A stretch of DNA of 21,172 nt. Source: a virus. The stretch spans positions 1-21,172 of the IMG/VR virus record IMGVR_UViG_3300046007_002553; one strand, written 5' to 3'. The notes beneath the pieces are model-generated. The model had not been told where the DNA came from. It saw only the letters and a program-made list of their open reading frames with translations, and ran no database searches. Below, piece by piece: positions 278 to 11,468 of this stretch (its first letter is position 1; each line of letters begins with the position of its first letter). The position numbers were made by a program, and so were the translations under genes.

Positions 278-357
278 AGGATAGAGATTGGGTAGAAATT
301 AATAAAGCAATTAATAAGAGAATACATGAATATAATTTATCAAATAAAGGTAAGTGA
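274..357 (+). CDS. Very small hypothetical protein (27 aa)
   Basis: A 27-codon frame begins at the ATG that overlaps the preceding TGA and ends at TGA 355-357. It shares 32 nt with the following gene, which begins at 326. The product starts MKDRDWVEINKAINKRIHEY and looks like one amphipathic helix. Its function is unknown. It may be a true micro-protein or a leader whose translation delivers ribosomes to the overlapping downstream start. Confidence is limited by its size. Confidence 0.35.
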   Translation: MKDRDWVEINKAINKRIHEYNLSNKGK

Positions 358-604
358 TTTATTTCCTACCTATAGGAATATTAGATGGAAGGATGCTGAT
401 ATACCAGAGGATAAATGGAAATATATCAAAGGTGAAGATAATATAACCGTACTTTTATTTAAAGGCTATAAAGCGGCAGACAATTTTGTCAAAAGATTAA
501 AAGAAATACCTGCCAAAGAGAATCCATACCTATACATAAAATGGTATAAAGGAAGAGAGACAGGAGATTTATTTAGAAAATTTAAACACAATATAATACA
601 ATGA
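326..604 (+). CDS. Hypothetical protein upstream of groEL (92 aa)
   Basis: The 92-residue product mixes beta-like hydrophobic stretches (ITVLLFKGYKAADNFVKRLK, YLYIKWYKG) with charged residues, and has no signal peptide or membrane segment. No family is recognised. The gene overlaps the tiny gene before it by 32 nt and groEL after it by the ATGA at 601-604, so it is almost certainly co-translated with the chaperonin genes. It could be a small accessory factor of the chaperonin operon or an unrelated early protein; the sequence does not decide. Confidence 0.65.
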   Translation: MNIIYQIKVSDLFPTYRNIRWKDADIPEDKWKYIKGEDNITVLLFKGYKAADNFVKRLKEIPAKENPYLYIKWYKGRETGDLFRKFKHNIIQ

Positions 605-2172
605 TCGTAAAACAAGTTAAAAATTTCGGCTCAGGACAAGTTGAATTAAGAAAAGGAATGAATATATTAGCGGATGCTGTTTGCTCTACATTAGGACCTG
701 AAGGCAGACCTGCAATTATTGAATCTGAACACGCAGTTAATGGGCTTATTATCAGTAAGGATGGTGTTACAGTGGCTAAGAGTATTTCGTTAGAAAATCC
801 TATCGAGAATATGGCTGTTCAGATTATGAAACAAGCAGCAGATAGGACCGCAATTGTAGCTGGAGATGGAACAACAACATCAATCTGTTTAACAAGAGCT
901 ATTCTTGAAGAGGCTTACGAACAGATGGGAGAGGATAATAACAAGTCTGAAGTAATAAGAGCTATTGTTGAAGTAAGTAAAATGATCGACAAGAACTTAA
1001 CAGCTGCAAGTAAAAAGATTACCAATAAGAGATTACTTGATGTAGCTACAATATCAGCAAACAACGACAAGGTTACAGGTAAATTAATCGCTGATGCATA
1101 TAGCAAAGCCTCTTTAGTTACTGTTGAGAACTCAATGACTACAAGCTCATATTATGAGGTTATTGAAGGTATTAAAATCAATAGAGGTTTCAGTAGTAAG
1201 TTCTTTGTTACAGACCATAAGAAGAACGAAGCTGTATTAGATAATGCATTAGTATTAATAACAGATCAAGAGATTAACACATTGGAATCTATTGAGCCTG
1301 TGTTAGCGTTCTGTGTAAAGAATAATAAACCATTATTCATTATTGGCGAGTTAGCTCCAGCAGTATTGAATACATTAAATATGAACGTAATTCAGAAGCG
1401 TATTAAGTTCGGAAATTGTATTCCTCCTGCAATGGGATACCGTAAAGAAGAATTACTTACAGACTTAGCTATTGCATTAGGTGCTAAATACTACTCAGAG
1501 CGCACAGGAGACATTTTAACTTCAATTTCAGTTGATGGGTTAGGATTTGCAAAAAAGGTTATTATAGGGCAGGAAAACACTATTATAATTAAAAGTGAAG
1601 AAGAACAAGTTGTAGAGCTTGAGGATCATATCAATCAATTGAAAGATAGTATTAAACTTCAGTCAAATCCTTCAGCTATCGATTTCTTGAACGAGCGTAT
1701 CGCAAACATCTCAGGAGGCATTGCTGTAATTCACGTAGGAGCAGAAACTGATATCGAACAGAAAGAACTTTACGATAGAGTAGAGGATGCTGTATTAGCT
1801 GTAAGAGCTTCATTGGAAGAAGGTATTCTACCTGGTGGTGGTATCGGACTAATTAATGCTTGCGAGAGTATTACGTACAAAGATAGCGAGGACTTTAATA
1901 CAGCAGTTGATATTGTATTTAAAGCATTAGAATATCCATTCTTACAGATATTAGAAAATTCAGGTATCGAAGAGCCTGATTCATTTGTTCATAAAATCTG
2001 TGCTGAAGATGCAGGATATGGATATAACGTTAAGACTAAAGAGTTCGGAGATATGATTAAAATGGGAATCATCGATCCAGCAAAAGTTACGAAGAGCGCA
2101 TTGAAGAACGCTGTATCAGTAGCAACAACAATATTATCAACAAGTACAATTATTTCAAACATCAGAGCATGA
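601..2172 (+). CDS. groEL: Phage chaperonin GroEL (Hsp60, group I)
   Basis: A 523-residue group I chaperonin subunit, expected to form rings that fold client proteins in the cytoplasm using ATP and the GroES lid. Hallmarks are in order: SKDGVTVAK near residue 58; the ATP-binding GDGTTT motif at 88-93 (D89 corresponds to E. coli D87); an apical domain with the pattern ALGAKYYSERTGD; the hydrolytic Asp in RVEDAV (D396, equivalent to D398); and PGGG at 411-414. It stops after the final equatorial helix and lacks the GGM-repeat tail of bacterial GroEL (about 548 aa in E. coli). It is fused by ATGA overlaps to the 92-aa gene before it and to groES after it. Family assignment is very secure. Its clients are unknown; capsid, spike or other virion proteins are plausible by analogy with other phage chaperonins. 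Confidence 0.97.
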   Translation: MIVKQVKNFGSGQVELRKGMNILADAVCSTLGPEGRPAIIESEHAVNGLIISKDGVTVAKSISLENPIENMAVQIMKQAADRTAIVAGDGTTTSICLTRAILEEAYEQMGEDNNKSEVIRAIVEVSKMIDKNLTAASKKITNKRLLDVATISANNDKVTGKLIADAYSKASLVTVENSMTTSSYYEVIEGIKINRGFSSKFFVTDHKKNEAVLDNALVLITDQEINTLESIEPVLAFCVKNNKPLFIIGELAPAVLNTLNMNVIQKRIKFGNCIPPAMGYRKEELLTDLAIALGAKYYSERTGDILTSISVDGLGFAKKVIIGQENTIIIKSEEEQVVELEDHINQLKDSIKLQSNPSAIDFLNERIANISGGIAVIHVGAETDIEQKELYDRVEDAVLAVRASLEEGILPGGGIGLINACESITYKDSEDFNTAVDIVFKALEYPFLQILENSGIEEPDSFVHKICAEDAGYGYNVKTKEFGDMIKMGIIDPAKVTKSALKNAVSVATTILSTSTIISNIRA

Positions 2173-2441
2173 GAGCATTAGGTAATTTTTTAGTAATTAA
2201 GCCTGAGAAGGTAGAAGAACAAGTATCAGCAAGCGGTCTATTGATGACCGCAGCTGACTCTAATAGCTTCAGATATCATGAGGCTGTCGTCCTATTAGTA
2301 GGAGATTCGAAAGATGTAAAAGTAGGAGACATAATTGCATTCGATAAAAGTGCAGGTCATCCATACAAATTAGATGGCGAGATGGTTCGTATTATTCAGG
2401 AGCGAGATTGCGCTTTGATTTTAGATACTCCTTCAAAGTAA
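2169..2441 (+). CDS. groES: Phage co-chaperonin GroES (Cpn10)
   Basis: A 90-residue co-chaperonin that should form the heptameric lid of the adjacent GroEL. It shows the N-terminal strand FLVIKPE, a mobile-loop segment EEQVSASGLLM (residues 16-26, with LLM at 24-26 in place of the E. coli GroEL-contacting IVL), the core KVGDIIAFDK, and a C-terminal ERDCALIL that matches the family's SxDILA strand. The segment equivalent to the roof hairpin is shortened to VGDSKDVKVGD. The start overlaps the groEL stop (ATGA). In bacteria groES normally precedes groEL, so this order is reversed. The last 50 nt overlap the 3' end of the convergent gene, and a terminator hairpin follows 45 nt after the stop. Confidence 0.93.
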   Translation: MRALGNFLVIKPEKVEEQVSASGLLMTAADSNSFRYHEAVVLLVGDSKDVKVGDIIAFDKSAGHPYKLDGEMVRIIQERDCALILDTPSK

Positions 2442-3069
2442 GACCATTACGGACATACTTATTGTCATCTATTTTTTCTTTAAAAATGCCAGGGTATCTT
2501 TCCTTGGCATTTTTTTTATTCATCTCTATAATTGCTTTAGCGTACTGTTTCTCAGCATATCCAGCAGATGCCATAAACAACGGATTGTTTGTATGTCGTT
2601 CAGATATTGGCTCAAGACCATTTAACTTTCTGTAGATAGTAAATACCATACTTCTAGCTTTCTTTGATAGCTCATATGTAGATACCTCGAACTTAGTTGG
2701 TCGTTTGAAGATGACTACCCATCCATCTTTACGTAGGTCATCAAATCTACCTTGTGTGAATCCACAAATCTTTGCATAATCTTCGAAATAGTTCTCCGTA
2801 AATAATCCTTCAGAGTGCAAGAAAAGAATAATCTCTAAGTTAGGAAATGAGATATTATAATACTTACAAGCCCAATATCTGACAATACGATAATATTTCA
2901 AGTAGTCTTCTTTAGGTGGAGTTCGGTTGTAATTCATAACCTTACCTCTTGTATTATAAACAACCTTTGTTTTTTGTACGAACGTTCGTTTATTAACTCC
3001 ATACTCTAATTCACGCTTCTCTTTACGTCTTTGGTGTATGCTTTTTCTTTTTGGTTTTTCTTCTTCCAT
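2392..3069 (-). CDS. Putative winged-helix DNA-binding regulator
   Basis: A 225-residue protein and the only leftward gene in the window. A very basic N-terminus (residues 1-45, rich in Lys/Arg) precedes a segment that reads as a winged helix-turn-helix. Helices at about 56-100 include ILFLHSEGLF, a likely recognition helix is at 103-114 (GFTQGRFDDLRK), and a beta wing follows at about 116-134 (GWVVIFKRPTKFEVSTYEL). The layout resembles MarR-like repressors. A charged helical tail follows. It is transcribed divergently from the spike region and converges on groES, overlapping its end by 50 nt. Position and fold suggest a regulator of its own divergent promoter region. The DNA-binding role is inferred, and other DNA-associated functions are possible. 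Confidence 0.7.
   Translation of the reverse strand: MEEEKPKRKSIHQRRKEKRELEYGVNKRTFVQKTKVVYNTRGKVMNYNRTPPKEDYLKYYRIVRYWACKYYNISFPNLEIILFLHSEGLFTENYFEDYAKICGFTQGRFDDLRKDGWVVIFKRPTKFEVSTYELSKKARSMVFTIYRKLNGLEPISERHTNNPLFMASAGYAEKQYAKAIIEMNKKNAKERYPGIFKEKIDDNKYVRNGLTLKEYLKSKRNLAPE
2482..2517 (+). terminator. Intrinsic terminator after groES
   Basis: ATGCCAGGG at 2486-2494 pairs with CCTTGGCAT at 2502-2510 (nine pairs including one G-T), with a 7-nt loop, followed by seven T at 2511-2517. It ends the rightward chaperonin transcript. Four A residues upstream of the stem give a shorter T run on the other strand, so it may work in both directions. It lies inside the coding sequence of the leftward gene, at about codons 186-194. 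Confidence 0.8.
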
Positions 3070-3390: not shown

Positions 3391-4732
3391 CGAAACAAGA
3401 AGGATAATAATAAAAAAAGGAGCAGGAACTCCAACTGTACCTGCGAGTTCAGATCATACAGATGGTACTTGGATAAGCAGTGATATTTATGAAGGAGAGC
3501 TATATTTAGACACAACAAACGGTTTAAATTACACTCGCTACGACAATACAATAGTTGAGTTATTTCCAACTTCCACAGGGTTAGCAGGTAATGAATTTGT
3601 TTTTGTTTTCTCTAAGCTAGACTTACCAACTGCATCGGGTGGTATTATTACGTTAGTTGATAATTACACTTACTTTATAACAAAAACAATTGACTTAACA
3701 GGAGATAGAATTGTCGGTGGAGTGAACAGTGTTATCATTGGAGGTAGTTCTGAAAACTGTATCTTAAAGAGTACAGGCTTGAGTGCGGCTACAGCGTTAA
3801 TTACTTCTAACTATTCTCTGCCTATGCGTAATTTTACTATTACACATGGTACTGCATTAGATTTAGATGGGGACGGAGTAACAACTGCATTAGATTGGTT
3901 TGGTGTTAACTTTACAGATTGTGCAACAGTTGGAACGATTAAAGATTACACTAATTTTGTAATGAGTGATGGAGCTTTTTTAAATAGTGGAAATCTAACA
4001 TTCGATGGAACGATTGGAACTATCGGTATGAGTAACTGCTTATTTGATTGTACAAGTGGCAGTACAGCATTAATCCTGCCTAGCACATTGACTGTAAGTA
4101 GAAGATTCAGAGTTATCTATTCATCTTTCGTAGTATTATCAGGAGAAACAGGAATAAATGTAAGTTCAAGTGCTACAATCTCAAGTGAGCGTTATATCTT
4201 AGATACGGTAAACTTTAGTGGTGGAGGTACTTACACAACAGGTGTTGCATATACAGATAATAAAGCGTTATTCGTTAACTGCGTAGGTATTACAAATACA
4301 TCTACAAAAGGTTTCATGTATATGCTTAACAACGGAACTGATACAGCTATTGGAGTTGCTAACGTGAACACATGGGTAAAAGCTACAGGGACTACAACGA
4401 GTGGAACAAATTCTAAATTTACACATACAACAAATAGACTAACGTATAACGGAGCATTTACAAATTCATTTTTAGTAACTATTAATGCGACAGTAAGAAG
4501 CGCAGGAACGAACCAATCTATATCAATAGGTGTTGCTAAAAACGGAACTATAATAACTGAAAGCGAGGGGATTGTTAGAACTGCAACAGCAAATGTTGAA
4601 CACGGAGGAAGTACACAAGCGGTGCTTGAGATGGTTGCTAATGATTATGTTGAGTTGTTTGTTAGAAATACATCTTCAACAGATATAAGAGTAACAGATT
4701 TTAACTTTAACGTTGTAAAAATACCAGTATAA
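3383..4732 (+). CDS. Tail spike/fibre with beta-helix and C1q/TNF-like C-terminal domain
   Basis: A 449-residue, beta-rich, Gly/Ser/Thr/Asn-rich virion protein predicted to bind the host surface. After a short N-terminal segment (RRIIIKKGAGTPTVPASSDH, residues 6-25), a repetitive region at about 75-300 has the look of a parallel beta-helix (DLTGDRIVGGVNSVIIGG, ITHGTALDLDGDG, MSNCLFDCTSGS). The last 130 residues (LNNGTDTAIG, FTHTTNRLTYNGAFT, ISIGVAKNGTII, ANDYVELFVRN, RVTDFNFNVVKI) follow the strand pattern of the trimeric C1q/TNF jelly roll often found at fibre tips. It follows the 90-aa protein with an 8-nt overlap and ends in TAATG, coupling it to the next gene. A polysaccharide-cleaving activity is possible, but no catalytic residues can be assigned. 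Confidence 0.75.
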   Translation: MANETRRIIIKKGAGTPTVPASSDHTDGTWISSDIYEGELYLDTTNGLNYTRYDNTIVELFPTSTGLAGNEFVFVFSKLDLPTASGGIITLVDNYTYFITKTIDLTGDRIVGGVNSVIIGGSSENCILKSTGLSAATALITSNYSLPMRNFTITHGTALDLDGDGVTTALDWFGVNFTDCATVGTIKDYTNFVMSDGAFLNSGNLTFDGTIGTIGMSNCLFDCTSGSTALILPSTLTVSRRFRVIYSSFVVLSGETGINVSSSATISSERYILDTVNFSGGGTYTTGVAYTDNKALFVNCVGITNTSTKGFMYMLNNGTDTAIGVANVNTWVKATGTTTSGTNSKFTHTTNRLTYNGAFTNSFLVTINATVRSAGTNQSISIGVAKNGTIITESEGIVRTATANVEHGGSTQAVLEMVANDYVELFVRNTSSTDIRVTDFNFNVVKIPV

Positions 4733-5010
4733 TGGCAAATAAAAAGAACGTATCTCTATCAATCGGAAGAGGAGAGAAATCAAAAAGTGGAGGTCTTACG
4801 CAAAAAGGTGTCGACAAATATAACCGAGAAACAGGCAGCAAACTACAAATGGCAGTTACAACAAAGCCTTCTAAACTGAAGCCAGGAAGTAAGGATGCTA
4901 AGCGTAGAGATGCCTTCTGTAGTCGAATGGGCGGAGTAAAAGGACCTATGAAAGATGAGAACGGAAAGCCAACAAGAAAAGCATTAGCCCTTAAGAAGTG
5001 GAATTGTTAA
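4732..5010 (+). CDS. Small Lys-rich conserved phage protein (DUF6321-like)
   Basis: A 92-residue basic protein with a recognisable pattern: GGLTQKGVDKYNRETGSKLQ, then KPSKLKPGSKDAKRRDAFCSRM, then GKPTRKALALKKWNC at the C-terminus. The same pattern is widespread in marine and gut phages and, from memory, corresponds to DUF6321; this was not checked. The two Cys (in FCSRM and the terminal WNC) are part of it. It has no signal or membrane segment. Its start overlaps the spike stop (TAATG). The function is unknown. High positive charge and co-expression with virion genes would fit a DNA-associated or minor virion protein. Confidence 0.8.
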   Translation: MANKKNVSLSIGRGEKSKSGGLTQKGVDKYNRETGSKLQMAVTTKPSKLKPGSKDAKRRDAFCSRMGGVKGPMKDENGKPTRKALALKKWNC

Positions 5011-5023
5011 TAAATAAACATAT

Positions 5024-5503
5024 ATGGAGAATTTAAGTAAAAATCTACCTTATGATGAAGTCATTAGGACAAGCAGTAAGAAGAAAAATATTCCAAATGA
5101 AGAGCAGTTGGAAAATATTAAGCTATGGGCTGAGAAAGTTTTTCAACCATGTAGAGACTGGGCTAACGGAGTTATTGTATGCAATTCAGTATTCCGTTCT
5201 AAAGAAGTAAACAAAGCAGTAGGCGGTTCATCTACAAGTGAACATATGGCTAACAACGGTTCAGCAGCAGGTGATTTAGATGCAAAGACAGTTAAGAATT
5301 TCGAACTGTTTCACTTTATCCGTAAAAACTTGGTGTTTAATCAACTTATCGCTGAGTTTCCTGTGAAAGGAGAGCCTTCATGGATTCATGTAAGTTACAA
5401 CAAAACTAAGAACAAGAATCAGATTTTAATTGCTAAGAAAAATAAAGCAGGTAAAACTGAATATGTTCCTTACATTGGTAATGAAAGATTGGTAAATATT
5501 TAG
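5024..5503 (+). CDS. M15-type peptidase, probable endolysin
   Basis: A 159-residue protein of the peptidase M15 (VanY / D-Ala-D-Ala carboxypeptidase, M15A-like) fold, expected to cut peptidoglycan cross-link peptides. Visible elements are NSVFRSKEVNKAVGGS (54-69), SEHMANNGSAAGDLD (72-86) with candidate zinc ligands H74 and D84, and WIHVSY (119-124) with the third ligand H121. The spacing between H74 and D84 is three residues longer than the usual SxHxxGxAaD pattern. There is no signal peptide, so it would need a holin to reach the wall, as expected for an endolysin. It is separated from the holin/spanin cassette by about 3.5 kb, and a virion-borne wall-degrading role cannot be excluded. Confidence 0.85.
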   Translation: MENLSKNLPYDEVIRTSSKKKNIPNEEQLENIKLWAEKVFQPCRDWANGVIVCNSVFRSKEVNKAVGGSSTSEHMANNGSAAGDLDAKTVKNFELFHFIRKNLVFNQLIAEFPVKGEPSWIHVSYNKTKNKNQILIAKKNKAGKTEYVPYIGNERLVNI

Positions 5504-9016: not shown

Positions 9017-9511
9017 ATGAACTTACAAACAGGAGATATATTACACTGTAAAGGTAAAAGGCTATTAAGTAAATTAATAGCCTTTGCTACTAATTCAGAA
9101 TTTACACATACAGCTATTGTAAAAGTAGAAGAAGGAGAAGTCTTTATTGCAGAAATGCAGAAGAACGGATGTGAGTTAAAGTCGTATGAGAATTGGCAGA
9201 AAGATTATGGATATAAGTACGTAGCCACTAGATGTTATAACGTAAGTAATTTGAATATATCAGGAAAGATATATAACAAAATAGGTTTCGCTAGATATGA
9301 TATAGCTTTACTGTTTTTAAGATATCCAGTTAAGTTATTAAAATCATTGATATTTAACAAAGAGTTCTGTATAAATAGAAAAAAGAATGAAGAGATGAGA
9401 ATGACTTGTTCTGAATTTGTAGCATATTGTTATGGGTGGAGAGATCCACAGAATTATTCACCTAAAGATGTTTATAACAAATGTATAAAAGAAGGACATA
9501 TTATCTTATAA
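9017..9511 (+). CDS. YiiX/NlpC-P60-like papain-fold hydrolase
   Basis: A 164-residue protein of the permuted NlpC/P60 (YiiX/YaeF-like) papain-fold group. The N-terminal part has TGDILHCKG (5-13) and SEFTHTAIV (27-35), where H31 is the likely catalytic His. AEMQ (45-48) may supply the polar third residue. RMTCSEFVAYCYG (128-140) carries the likely nucleophile C131. The order His before Cys is the permuted form. Members cleave amide, ester or thioester bonds in peptidoglycan peptides or lipids; the substrate here is unknown. It heads the lysis cassette, and its last 31 nt contain the start of the spanin-like gene. A perfect 12-bp inverted repeat lies within its codons 14-23. Internal hydrophobic stretch YDIALLFLRYPVKLLKSLIF (94-113) is part of the fold or membrane contact. 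Confidence 0.8.
   Translation: MNLQTGDILHCKGKRLLSKLIAFATNSEFTHTAIVKVEEGEVFIAEMQKNGCELKSYENWQKDYGYKYVATRCYNVSNLNISGKIYNKIGFARYDIALLFLRYPVKLLKSLIFNKEFCINRKKNEEMRMTCSEFVAYCYGWRDPQNYSPKDVYNKCIKEGHIIL
9057..9085 (+). other. Perfect 12-bp hairpin inside the hydrolase gene
   Basis: AAAGGCTATTAA (9057-9068) and TTAATAGCCTTT (9074-9085) are exact reverse complements with a 5-nt loop GTAAA. The hairpin begins 40 nt after the start codon and lacks a long T tract, so it is not a standard terminator. It may affect translation or RNA cleavage in the lysis transcript. Confidence 0.6.
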
Positions 9512-10011
9512 TATTTACTTTATTGTTATCCTGCTCTACACAACGTAGGGCAGTTTGGCATATAAATAGAGCAATCAAACTAGATTCAACTCTGCTTAAC
9601 GCAAAGACTGATACTATAACTATCATTCAGAAGGAACAGTATCAAGATACTTTAATAAAAGATAGTATTGAAGTAGATAATGATAGATTATTCATAAGAG
9701 TAGATAGAGAAGGAGATTTTATAAATCTTAAATGGAAGCTGAAAGAACAGCGTTTCGACACAATCTATCATACTCATTTGTTTGACACAATTCCAATCTT
9801 TAAAACAAGACAAGACAAACGTTTAGAAGCAAAGAAAGAGCGATTGATAATTAGACAAAAAGGTAAGACAGAAAGAATATATATCAAACAAAAGAACGAA
9901 AAAAAGAACAATTGGTTGCTGTGTACATTCATTGGATTTTTTATTGGTTTCATTACTAGATATTTAGTTGATAATTTTATTAAGAAAATTTTTACTAACT
10001 TTAAAGTATGA
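9481..10011 (+). CDS. Candidate unimolecular spanin (lipoprotein with C-terminal TM)
   Basis: A 176-residue protein with an N-terminal lipoprotein signal (Arg-Arg, hydrophobic YLIIFTLLLSC, lipobox LLSC at 15-18 with C18 as the lipidated Cys), a charged periplasmic span of about 125 residues and one transmembrane segment near the C-terminus (WLLCTFIGFFIGFITRYLV, 145-163). A lipid anchor in the outer membrane and a TM in the inner membrane is the architecture of u-spanins such as phage T1 gp11, which fuse the two membranes in the last step of lysis. Bacteroidota phages often have similar Rz-like proteins. The start lies 31 nt inside the hydrolase gene; no later Met precedes the lipobox. It overlaps the holin-like gene by 4 nt. 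Confidence 0.75.
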   Translation: MYKRRTYYLIIFTLLLSCSTQRRAVWHINRAIKLDSTLLNAKTDTITIIQKEQYQDTLIKDSIEVDNDRLFIRVDREGDFINLKWKLKEQRFDTIYHTHLFDTIPIFKTRQDKRLEAKKERLIIRQKGKTERIYIKQKNEKKNNWLLCTFIGFFIGFITRYLVDNFIKKIFTNFKV

Positions 10012-10498: not shown

Positions 10499-10741
10499 AT
10501 GTCAAACAAACTTACAGAAGAAGAGTTAGATCGTTTCATCAAAACAAGACAAAACTACTTCGATTTAAAAGATCAAATAGCTGATATTACAATTAGCGAA
10601 GAAAGAATCAAACAACAGAAATCAAAAGCATTATACGATATTGAATTAGCTTACGATTCATTAACTGCTATCCATAAAGAAATACAAGAGAAGTATGGAG
10701 ATGGAAAGGTAAATCTACAGACAGGTGAAGTTAATTCGTAA
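10499..10741 (+). CDS. Coiled-coil small protein (80 aa)
   Basis: The 80-residue product is almost entirely helical with heptad-like spacing (LTEEELDRFIKTRQNYFDLK, then ISEERIKQQKSKALYDIELAY), ending in YGDGKVNLQTGEV. The KYGD-x-x-[VI]-N-[IL]-x-[TD]-G end is a pattern remembered from small proteins upstream of terminase genes in Bacteroidota phages. Function is unknown. It is first in an operon with its own promoter box and overlaps the next gene by 17 nt. A role as small terminase subunit or packaging adaptor is possible but unsupported beyond position. Confidence 0.65.
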   Translation: MSNKLTEEELDRFIKTRQNYFDLKDQIADITISEERIKQQKSKALYDIELAYDSLTAIHKEIQEKYGDGKVNLQTGEVNS

Positions 10742-10943
10742 GGTATCAATCGGAATAGATTACAAAAACTCTATGCATTTTGTAGTCGGACAGGAGGTAC
10801 TTGATAAGTCTTATCATATTGACTATATTAAAAATACTATTGATGGTATTGAAATATGGATAAAGAAGGCTAACGAAATTATACTCTGGAAGTCATTCAA
10901 TAAAGCAGTCCCAGTCGTTATAGAATATAATATTGATTTTTAA
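10725..10943 (+). CDS. Small conserved hypothetical protein (72 aa)
   Basis: The 72-residue product starts MKLIRKVSIGIDYKNSMHFV and ends IILWKSFNKAVPVVIEYNID, with alternating beta-like segments. The combination of an N-terminal RKxxIG...MxxVVGQ and C-terminal WKxFNxxxPVxxEYN is a pattern remembered from crAss-like and related Bacteroidota phages beside the terminase. It begins 17 nt inside the coiled-coil gene and abuts the next gene directly. Function is unknown. Confidence 0.65.
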   Translation: MKLIRKVSIGIDYKNSMHFVVGQEVLDKSYHIDYIKNTIDGIEIWIKKANEIILWKSFNKAVPVVIEYNIDF

Positions 10944-11468
10944 ATGAAGTCTCCCAATTATTTTATCATTAAACCATTAAACGATGCTAGATATGATAAC
11001 ATCAGGAAGTATGGTGATAATGAGTTTGTAATAAGTTCTTCTACAGAGGACCACAGAATTGTTAATCGTTATGCAATCGTTCAGTCAGTTCCAATGAATT
11101 ACAATGGAGCAATTAAGCCTGGAGATACAGTAATCGTTCATCACAACGTATTCAGAATTACTTATGGATATGATGGTCTACCTAAGAGCAGTTGGTCATT
11201 CTATAAAGACAATATATTCTTAGTATCATTAGATCAGATTTTCTGTCATAAGTCAGATGAAGAAGATTGGAAGTCAATCTATCCGTATGTATTTATCAAG
11301 CCTAATGGTACTGAATTAGAAGGCACAGTTGTCTATACTCCAAAAGAAATAATAAATGTTTCTCCTGGAGATACAATAACACATAGACCTGAAATGGAAT
11401 ATGAGTTTAAATTTGATGATGAGAAATTGTATAGAATGAAATATACTGATTTATGTCTGAAACTTTAA
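10944..11468 (+). CDS. Candidate tandem GroES-like (Cpn10-fold) protein
   Basis: The 174-residue product reads as two copies of a small beta-barrel. Copy one (about 1-90) has YFIIKPLN, RYAIVQSVP, IKPGDTVIVHHNVFRI and FLVSLDQIF. Copy two (about 91-174) has YVFIKPNG, LEGTVVYTP, VSPGDTITHRPEMEYEF and LYRMKYTDLCLKL. Each follows the Cpn10 order: a V/I-K-P start, a strand, [VI]xxGDx[VI] and a final strand before a [DE]-[QIL]-[IFL] stop. Neither copy shows a clear GroEL-binding mobile loop. It begins right after the 72-aa gene and overlaps the next by 16 nt. It could be a double co-chaperonin, or a structural protein that borrowed the fold. The resemblance was judged by eye. Confidence 0.5.
   Translation: MKSPNYFIIKPLNDARYDNIRKYGDNEFVISSSTEDHRIVNRYAIVQSVPMNYNGAIKPGDTVIVHHNVFRITYGYDGLPKSSWSFYKDNIFLVSLDQIFCHKSDEEDWKSIYPYVFIKPNGTELEGTVVYTPKEIINVSPGDTITHRPEMEYEFKFDDEKLYRMKYTDLCLKL

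Follow-up and report, generated by a model that had tools for sequence, protein, structure and literature searches.

The window, an entire virus record of 21,172 bases, carries a gene for a group I chaperonin followed directly by a gene for its co-chaperonin, the reverse of the bacterial order. We consider it highly probable that the two genes encode a phage chaperonin together with its lid and have been passed down vertically in a clade of ~60-kb tailed phages of Bacteroidota (Elemovirus and ctfjg026-like phages). The reversed order is an inherited trait of that whole clade and is not peculiar to the window phage, so that an apparent single-genome oddity becomes a lineage trait. A full chaperonin has been kept through deep divergence (groEL to about 33% identity) and co-inherited with packaging genes, which implies steady selection to keep a folding machine of the phages' own. 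The window also encodes a second co-chaperonin-like protein with two predicted Cpn10-like domains, which has real discovery potential and suggests that the lid system is more elaborate than the host's.

The window encodes an intact groEL-groES pair

326 to 604, forward strand: 92-aa ORF upstream of groEL; a second ATGA at 601-604 couples it to groEL
601 to 2172, forward strand: groEL, group I chaperonin large subunit, 523 aa (PF00118, E 8.4e-52; phrog_5725 'chaperonin groEL', E 4e-123)
862 to 879, forward strand: GDGTTT nucleotide-binding motif, GroEL residues 88-93 (alignment with clade members)
1786 to 1788, forward strand: hydrolytic Asp396 of GroEL (E. coli D398), unchanged in all 28 clade members compared
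1831 to 1842, forward strand: PGGG, GroEL residues 411-414 (from the sequence)
2169 to 2172, forward strand: ATGA overlap of the groES start codon and the groEL stop codon (from the sequence)
2169 to 2441, forward strand: groES, single-domain co-chaperonin, 90 aa (PF00166, E 1.2e-8; phrog_3188 'co-chaperonin GroES', E 8.6e-13)
2235 to 2246, forward strand: GLLM, tip of the GroES mobile loop, residues 23-26 (clade consensus KTxSGLLLS, Gly invariant)

The first-pass annotation had described a complete pair at 601-2441 with groEL first and the two genes coupled by ATGA. Both ORFs are intact in the ORF list of the window, both match Pfam and PHROG families, and the overlap is present at 2169-2172. 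Since the groES start overlaps the groEL stop, the pair is probably translated from a single message. GroEL could be aligned to PDB GroEL across residues 4-519 and scored above the cut-off of NCBIfam NF009487 (459 bits against 352), and GroES passed the gathering cut-off of PF00166 (35.3 bits against 21.1). GroEL scored below the cut-off of TIGR02348 (418 against 582) and GroES fell under the GroES cut-offs of NCBIfam, which we read as a sign of divergence. The predicted fold of GroES (pLDDT 85) matched GroES structure 3nx6 with Z 11.6 and rmsd 1.2 over 64 residues, and the lowest confidence in the model was in the mobile-loop region. The 92-aa ORF upstream gave only a weak PHROG match and no match in a Pfam search.

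Conserved residues and selection point to a probable working chaperonin

All of the key residues reported earlier (GDGTTT, the hydrolytic Asp, PGGG and the GLLM loop) are in place. E. coli D52, D87, T89-91, D398 and D495 correspond to D54, D89, T91-93, D396 and D492 of the window GroEL; across 28 clade members, no key aspartate varies and the nucleotide loop hardly does. The GroES mobile loop, SGLLM at residues 22-26 in the window, is conserved across 55 groES sequences. The GGM tail, already noted as missing from the window GroEL, is absent from all 28 clade members compared as well. Conservation of the catalytic residues and mobile loop supports the earlier view that a working chamber is likely. 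The genes are under purifying selection, with dN/dS of about 0.04-0.25 in groEL, groES and the two-domain gene where synonymous change was estimable. For the related phage phi38:1, mass spectrometry identified GroEL both in infected cells and in samples of free virions (PMC13288928). Given the conserved residues and loop, the dN/dS values and the mass spectrometry of phi38:1, the window pair most likely constitutes a working, expressed phage chaperonin.

Some positions depart from the E. coli protein. The inter-ring contacts R452, E461, S463 and V464 of E. coli correspond to L448, E457, D460 and S461 in the window and vary within the clade, and because these ring-ring contact positions are not conserved the ring architecture is uncertain. 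Single-ring forms are known among some other phage chaperonins, and the residues at these positions make a single-ring GroEL possible in the window clade. At the apical positions L234 and V263, the window GroEL has Glu and Asn, respectively, so client binding may differ.

We propose that the phage GroEL would assemble into a ring with ATPase activity, that its apical domains would bind unfolded proteins, that ATP and the GroES mobile loop (GLLM) would close the chamber, and that hydrolysis would reopen it. Its likely role during infection would be to provide folding capacity adapted to the proteins of the phage. T4 gp31 replaces host GroES, and the window phage would offer a parallel in which the phage brings both parts. 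By analogy with gp31, virion proteins are the natural guess for clients. The two-domain Cpn10-like protein may work with the same chamber.

Reversed gene order extends through the phage clade

11712 to 13955, forward strand: terminase large subunit, marker of the phage clade (phrog_6681, E 4.5e-174)

The window terminase shares 68% identity with its counterpart in Podoviridae ctfjg026 (MW202828) and 44% with those of Elemovirus phages of Flavobacterium; its other annotated relatives infect Cellulophaga, Maribacter and Tenacibaculum. We infer that the host of the window phage is most likely a member of the Bacteroidota.

An alignment-based scan of IMG/VR found hundreds of matches and gave at least 80 groEL loci. 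Searching IMG/VR with the window groEL as the sole query yielded no match, owing to the divergence of that protein. Most seeds of the alignment-based scan were reversed-order phages and a few of the loci were near-duplicates, so the sample speaks for the clade but not for phages in general. Among the matches listed, 72 of 80 IMG/VR loci had groEL before groES: groES lay less than 2 kb downstream in 70 and at 2.5-3.4 kb in 2, the order was groES-groEL in 3, and no groES was seen in 5. Spacing in 74 downstream pairs ran from a 20-base overlap to 2.5 kb, with 41 of the 74 between a 25-base overlap and a 20-base gap. The exact ATGA overlap occurred in 10 of the 74, including the window.

Large contigs of the clade showed the same arrangement. 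All 24 IMG/VR contigs searched, 50-67 kb in length, carried the terminase, a small cpn10 and groEL, in every case with groEL first, and the two-domain protein was found in 23, the terminase of the remaining contig being cut by the contig end. Ten of the 24 had been picked by terminase alone, so that the presence of groEL in these does not stem from how they were sampled. The first-pass annotation had called full pairs rare in phages. This holds for phages overall, since any groEL match at all was found in 270 of 50,697 phage records, but not inside the window clade, where every large contig sampled carries the pair.

Bacterial loci gave the opposite picture. A neighbouring groES was present at 79 of 80 groEL loci in our control, and in all 79 the order was groES-groEL, as the first-pass annotation had stated for bacterial operons; the reversed order was found in none of the 79. 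In a survey of 4,861 prokaryotic genomes, 4,824 of 5,658 groEL genes followed closely after groES, and the remaining 834 had no groES as a neighbour (PMC5406781).

Annotated phages show both arrangements. The groEL-groES order is annotated in ctfjg026 and Elemovirus, and Maribacter phage Panino has the same order with a small ORF in between. Phages immuto and SJC03 have the canonical groES-groEL order, Callevirus phi40:1 has groES-orf-groEL, and in the Vibrio phages examined cpn10 lies apart from groEL. Bacterial-type groES-groEL pairs occur in other phage groups (L091, L099 and L104), and record L020 is also of this bacterial type. In crAss phage cr108_1, a cpn10-like match 1.4 kb from groEL was below the Pfam cut-off and was not counted as a pair.

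The pair is inherited with the phage

In a groEL tree of 67 sequences, the window fell in a clade of 31 rows (support 98/91) made up of reversed-order phages, ctfjg026, Elemovirus and Panino among them, except for one contig that ends soon after groEL. A split with support 99/94 separated the phage side, with phi40:1, from bacteria and bacterial-type phage GroELs. The groES tree, built on a short alignment, recovered a clade of 39 reversed-order phages (95/88), and the nearest relatives of the window (L025-L027) were identical in the two trees. The deepest joins are uncertain, with long branches leading to elemoA, Panino and phi40:1 and a bootstrap that had not fully settled. Among nine genomes with all genes, Mantel correlations with terminase distances were 0.92 for groEL, 0.74 for groES and 0.90 for the two-domain gene, and groEL and groES distances correlated with each other (r 0.81). 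Distances that track the terminase, together with agreeing trees, indicate that the pair is inherited with the phage. The first-pass annotation had taken the order as a mark of independent assembly of the operon in this phage, a reading that gives way here to a clade-wide trait inherited with the terminase.

Assembly further back, with genes of different sources joined in the ancestor of the clade, is possible but rather unlikely in our estimation. In its favour, the order is reversed clade-wide and never in sampled bacterial loci, and the two genes of many relatives are set apart by an ORF or by a gap of 120-400 bases. Against this, the two gene trees are congruent within the clade, a pattern that a single joint origin would explain just as well, and the deep nodes are poorly resolved. 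The next branch after the window clade in the groEL tree is phi40:1, whose order is canonical, so the order may have changed in either direction. For the ancestor of the clade, the data fit both two separate acquisitions and one acquisition followed by rearrangement. We also considered whether groES came first and groEL was inserted upstream later, an idea drawn from Cellulophaga phage phi13:2, which has cpn10 genes without groEL. This was not supported, because the small cpn10 of phi13:2 groups with that of Bacteroides phage SJC03 on the bacterial side of the groES tree.

A predicted two-domain Cpn10-like protein lies beside the terminase

10944 to 11468, forward strand: second co-chaperonin-like protein of 174 aa, predicted to hold two Cpn10-like domains in a single chain (phrog_13932 'co-chaperonin GroES', E 8.4e-16; predicted fold)

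Just upstream of the terminase gene, the window encodes a second co-chaperonin-like protein, which the first-pass annotation had not connected with the pair. A structural model built from 61 homologues had a mean pLDDT of 88, and its best PDB match was Chlamydomonas CPN20 (7ekq_R, Foldseek E 1.7e-4). The superposition covered 149 residues and spanned residues 1-174, with VIA Z 10.8, rmsd 3.1 and 17% identity. The C-terminal domain matched the groES profile (hhalign 93.5%, E 2e-7), and GroES structures matched residues 108-174 with Z of about 10; in the window its mobile loop is lost, down to a few residues. Profile comparisons of the N-terminal domain with groES and with its own C-terminal domain were not significant, so this domain appears Cpn10-like by predicted fold only; it carries a conserved GxxxF(I/V)xS stretch. 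A weak match of the protein to PF16450, below the cut-off, recurred in 2 of 61 homologues and was set aside.

The gene precedes the terminase at 77 of the 78 loci where enough sequence is available. Annotated relatives name it cpn10 or GroES, and 'chaperonin cpn10' is a listed core gene of Pervagoviridae (PMC8776804). In the open-access literature, we found no paper on the two-domain build of the phage protein or on its likeness to Cpn20.

The nearest parallel for a phage set of two lids is chloroplast Cpn10 and Cpn20, which are reported to combine into seven-domain lids (PMC5780408). By extension, the phage GroEL might be closed by a two-part lid in which single-domain GroES and the tandem Cpn20-like protein mix their domains as in chloroplasts, a proposal that we regard as speculative and on balance unlikely. 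If true, a heteromeric co-chaperonin lid would have originated twice, the second time in viruses, where it may be adapted to capsid, portal or terminase proteins.

Lids can also exist without a phage chamber. Phage phi13:2 (L021, NC_021803), of the same terminase family, has two cpn10 genes, a small one at 88-336 and a two-domain one at 10709-11311, and groEL was not found in it. Gundel_1, in the wider terminase family, yielded neither groEL nor cpn10. Phage GroES and the two-domain protein might therefore mainly serve host GroEL, in the manner of T4 gp31, with the phage GroEL acting separately as a lid-free holdase or single-ring chaperonin. The retention of both lids in the Pachyvirus phi13:2, the loss of inter-ring contact positions in the window clade, and the report that phage chaperonin EL functions without GroES (PMC7185714) are consistent with such a division of labour. 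We nonetheless judge it improbable, as groEL adjoins groES in nearly all relatives, their distances are correlated as given above, and the mobile loop is GLLL-like, as in canonical GroES.

Relation to bacterial chaperonins

As a rival origin, this phage lineage might recently have taken up a host groESL operon and then swapped the gene order. The best non-viral matches of the window groEL are indeed from Bacteroidota and other bacteria, at 38-40% identity, and the bacterial-type pairs of other phage groups show that such operons do occur in phages. Its closest relatives, however, are the groELs of other phages, at 52-57% identity, within the well-supported phage clade. Forcing the window groEL together with Flavobacteriaceae lowered the log-likelihood by 248 and was rejected (p-AU 2.6e-9). 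With that grouping rejected and the reversed order in no sampled bacterial locus, recent capture is very improbable, in line with the first-pass annotation, which had argued against a simple capture from the host. Bacterial contamination or an assembly artefact can be dismissed almost entirely: some phage-labelled records, such as MT835992, do carry a bacterial-type pair with no annotation, but the window has terminase, portal and virion protein genes on the same 21-kb contig, and its arrangement recurs in more than 70 independent viral contigs.

Comparison with known systems

Viral GroEL, the link between gene order and phylogeny, and the pair of Panino were already known, and the window is a further case of these. 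GroEL has been described in marine Bacteroidetes phages (Nishimura 2017, PMC5332604), and both chaperonin genes of Panino have been reported (PMC11590407). The virioplankton GroELs of Marine 2017, in the passages quoted in PMC9611531, are also viral group I chaperonins whose subunit gene order is linked to GroEL phylogeny; the same passages associate viral GroEL with genomes larger than 70 kb, compared with contigs of about 51-67 kb in the window clade.

The closest named systems are the Flavobacterium phages elemoA-F (Elemovirus) and ctfjg026, which share the terminase clade of the window, the groEL-groES order with overlapping or abutting genes, and a second cpn10-like gene upstream of the terminase. 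Their groELs are only 33-44% identical to that of the window, and in elemoA the pair is on the strand opposite to the terminase. The Cellulophaga phages phi38:1 and phi40:1 (Callevirus) resemble the window in having groEL, a small cpn10 and a two-domain cpn10 before the terminase, but their order is groES-orf-groEL and their groEL is 35% identical to that of the window.

E. coli GroEL/GroES shares with the window pair its fold, nucleotide and hydrolysis residues and mobile-loop lid; it differs in gene order, in its GGM tail and in the ring-ring contact positions, which are not conserved in the window. The chaperonin EL (gp146) of Pseudomonas phage EL is GroEL-like and phage-encoded, as in the window, but lies farther from the window groEL (E 1.6e-30) than E. 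coli GroEL does (E 1e-94), and it showed no interaction with E. coli GroES (PMC7185714). Chloroplast CPN20 has two Cpn10-like domains per chain, as predicted for the 174-aa protein, and like it is encoded alongside a single-domain Cpn10. The two differ in that their identity is 17%, the C-terminal domain in the window has no mobile loop, and the N-terminal domain could not be related by profile.

Neighbouring genes

A convergent gene at 2392-3069 on the reverse strand overlaps the 3' end of groES by 50 bases. Its homologue in ctfjg026, 40% identical and in the same place beside groES, is annotated 'repressor protein'. The 92-aa protein encoded at 4732-5010 looks like a mobile C-terminal domain, its matches falling at the C-terminal ends of many phage families that are unrelated to each other (phrog_10346, phrog_4689, phrog_3477 and others). 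Two genes likely encode cell-wall enzymes: an M15 peptidase at 5024-5503 (PF08291, E 6e-11) and a YiiX/C92-type amidase-like protein at 9017-9511 (PF05708, E 3e-5, below the cut-off). Adjoining the latter, the gene at 9481-10011 has an N-terminal lipoprotein-type signal, MYKRRTYYLIIFTLLLSC, and by inspection only its product is possibly a lysis (spanin) component.
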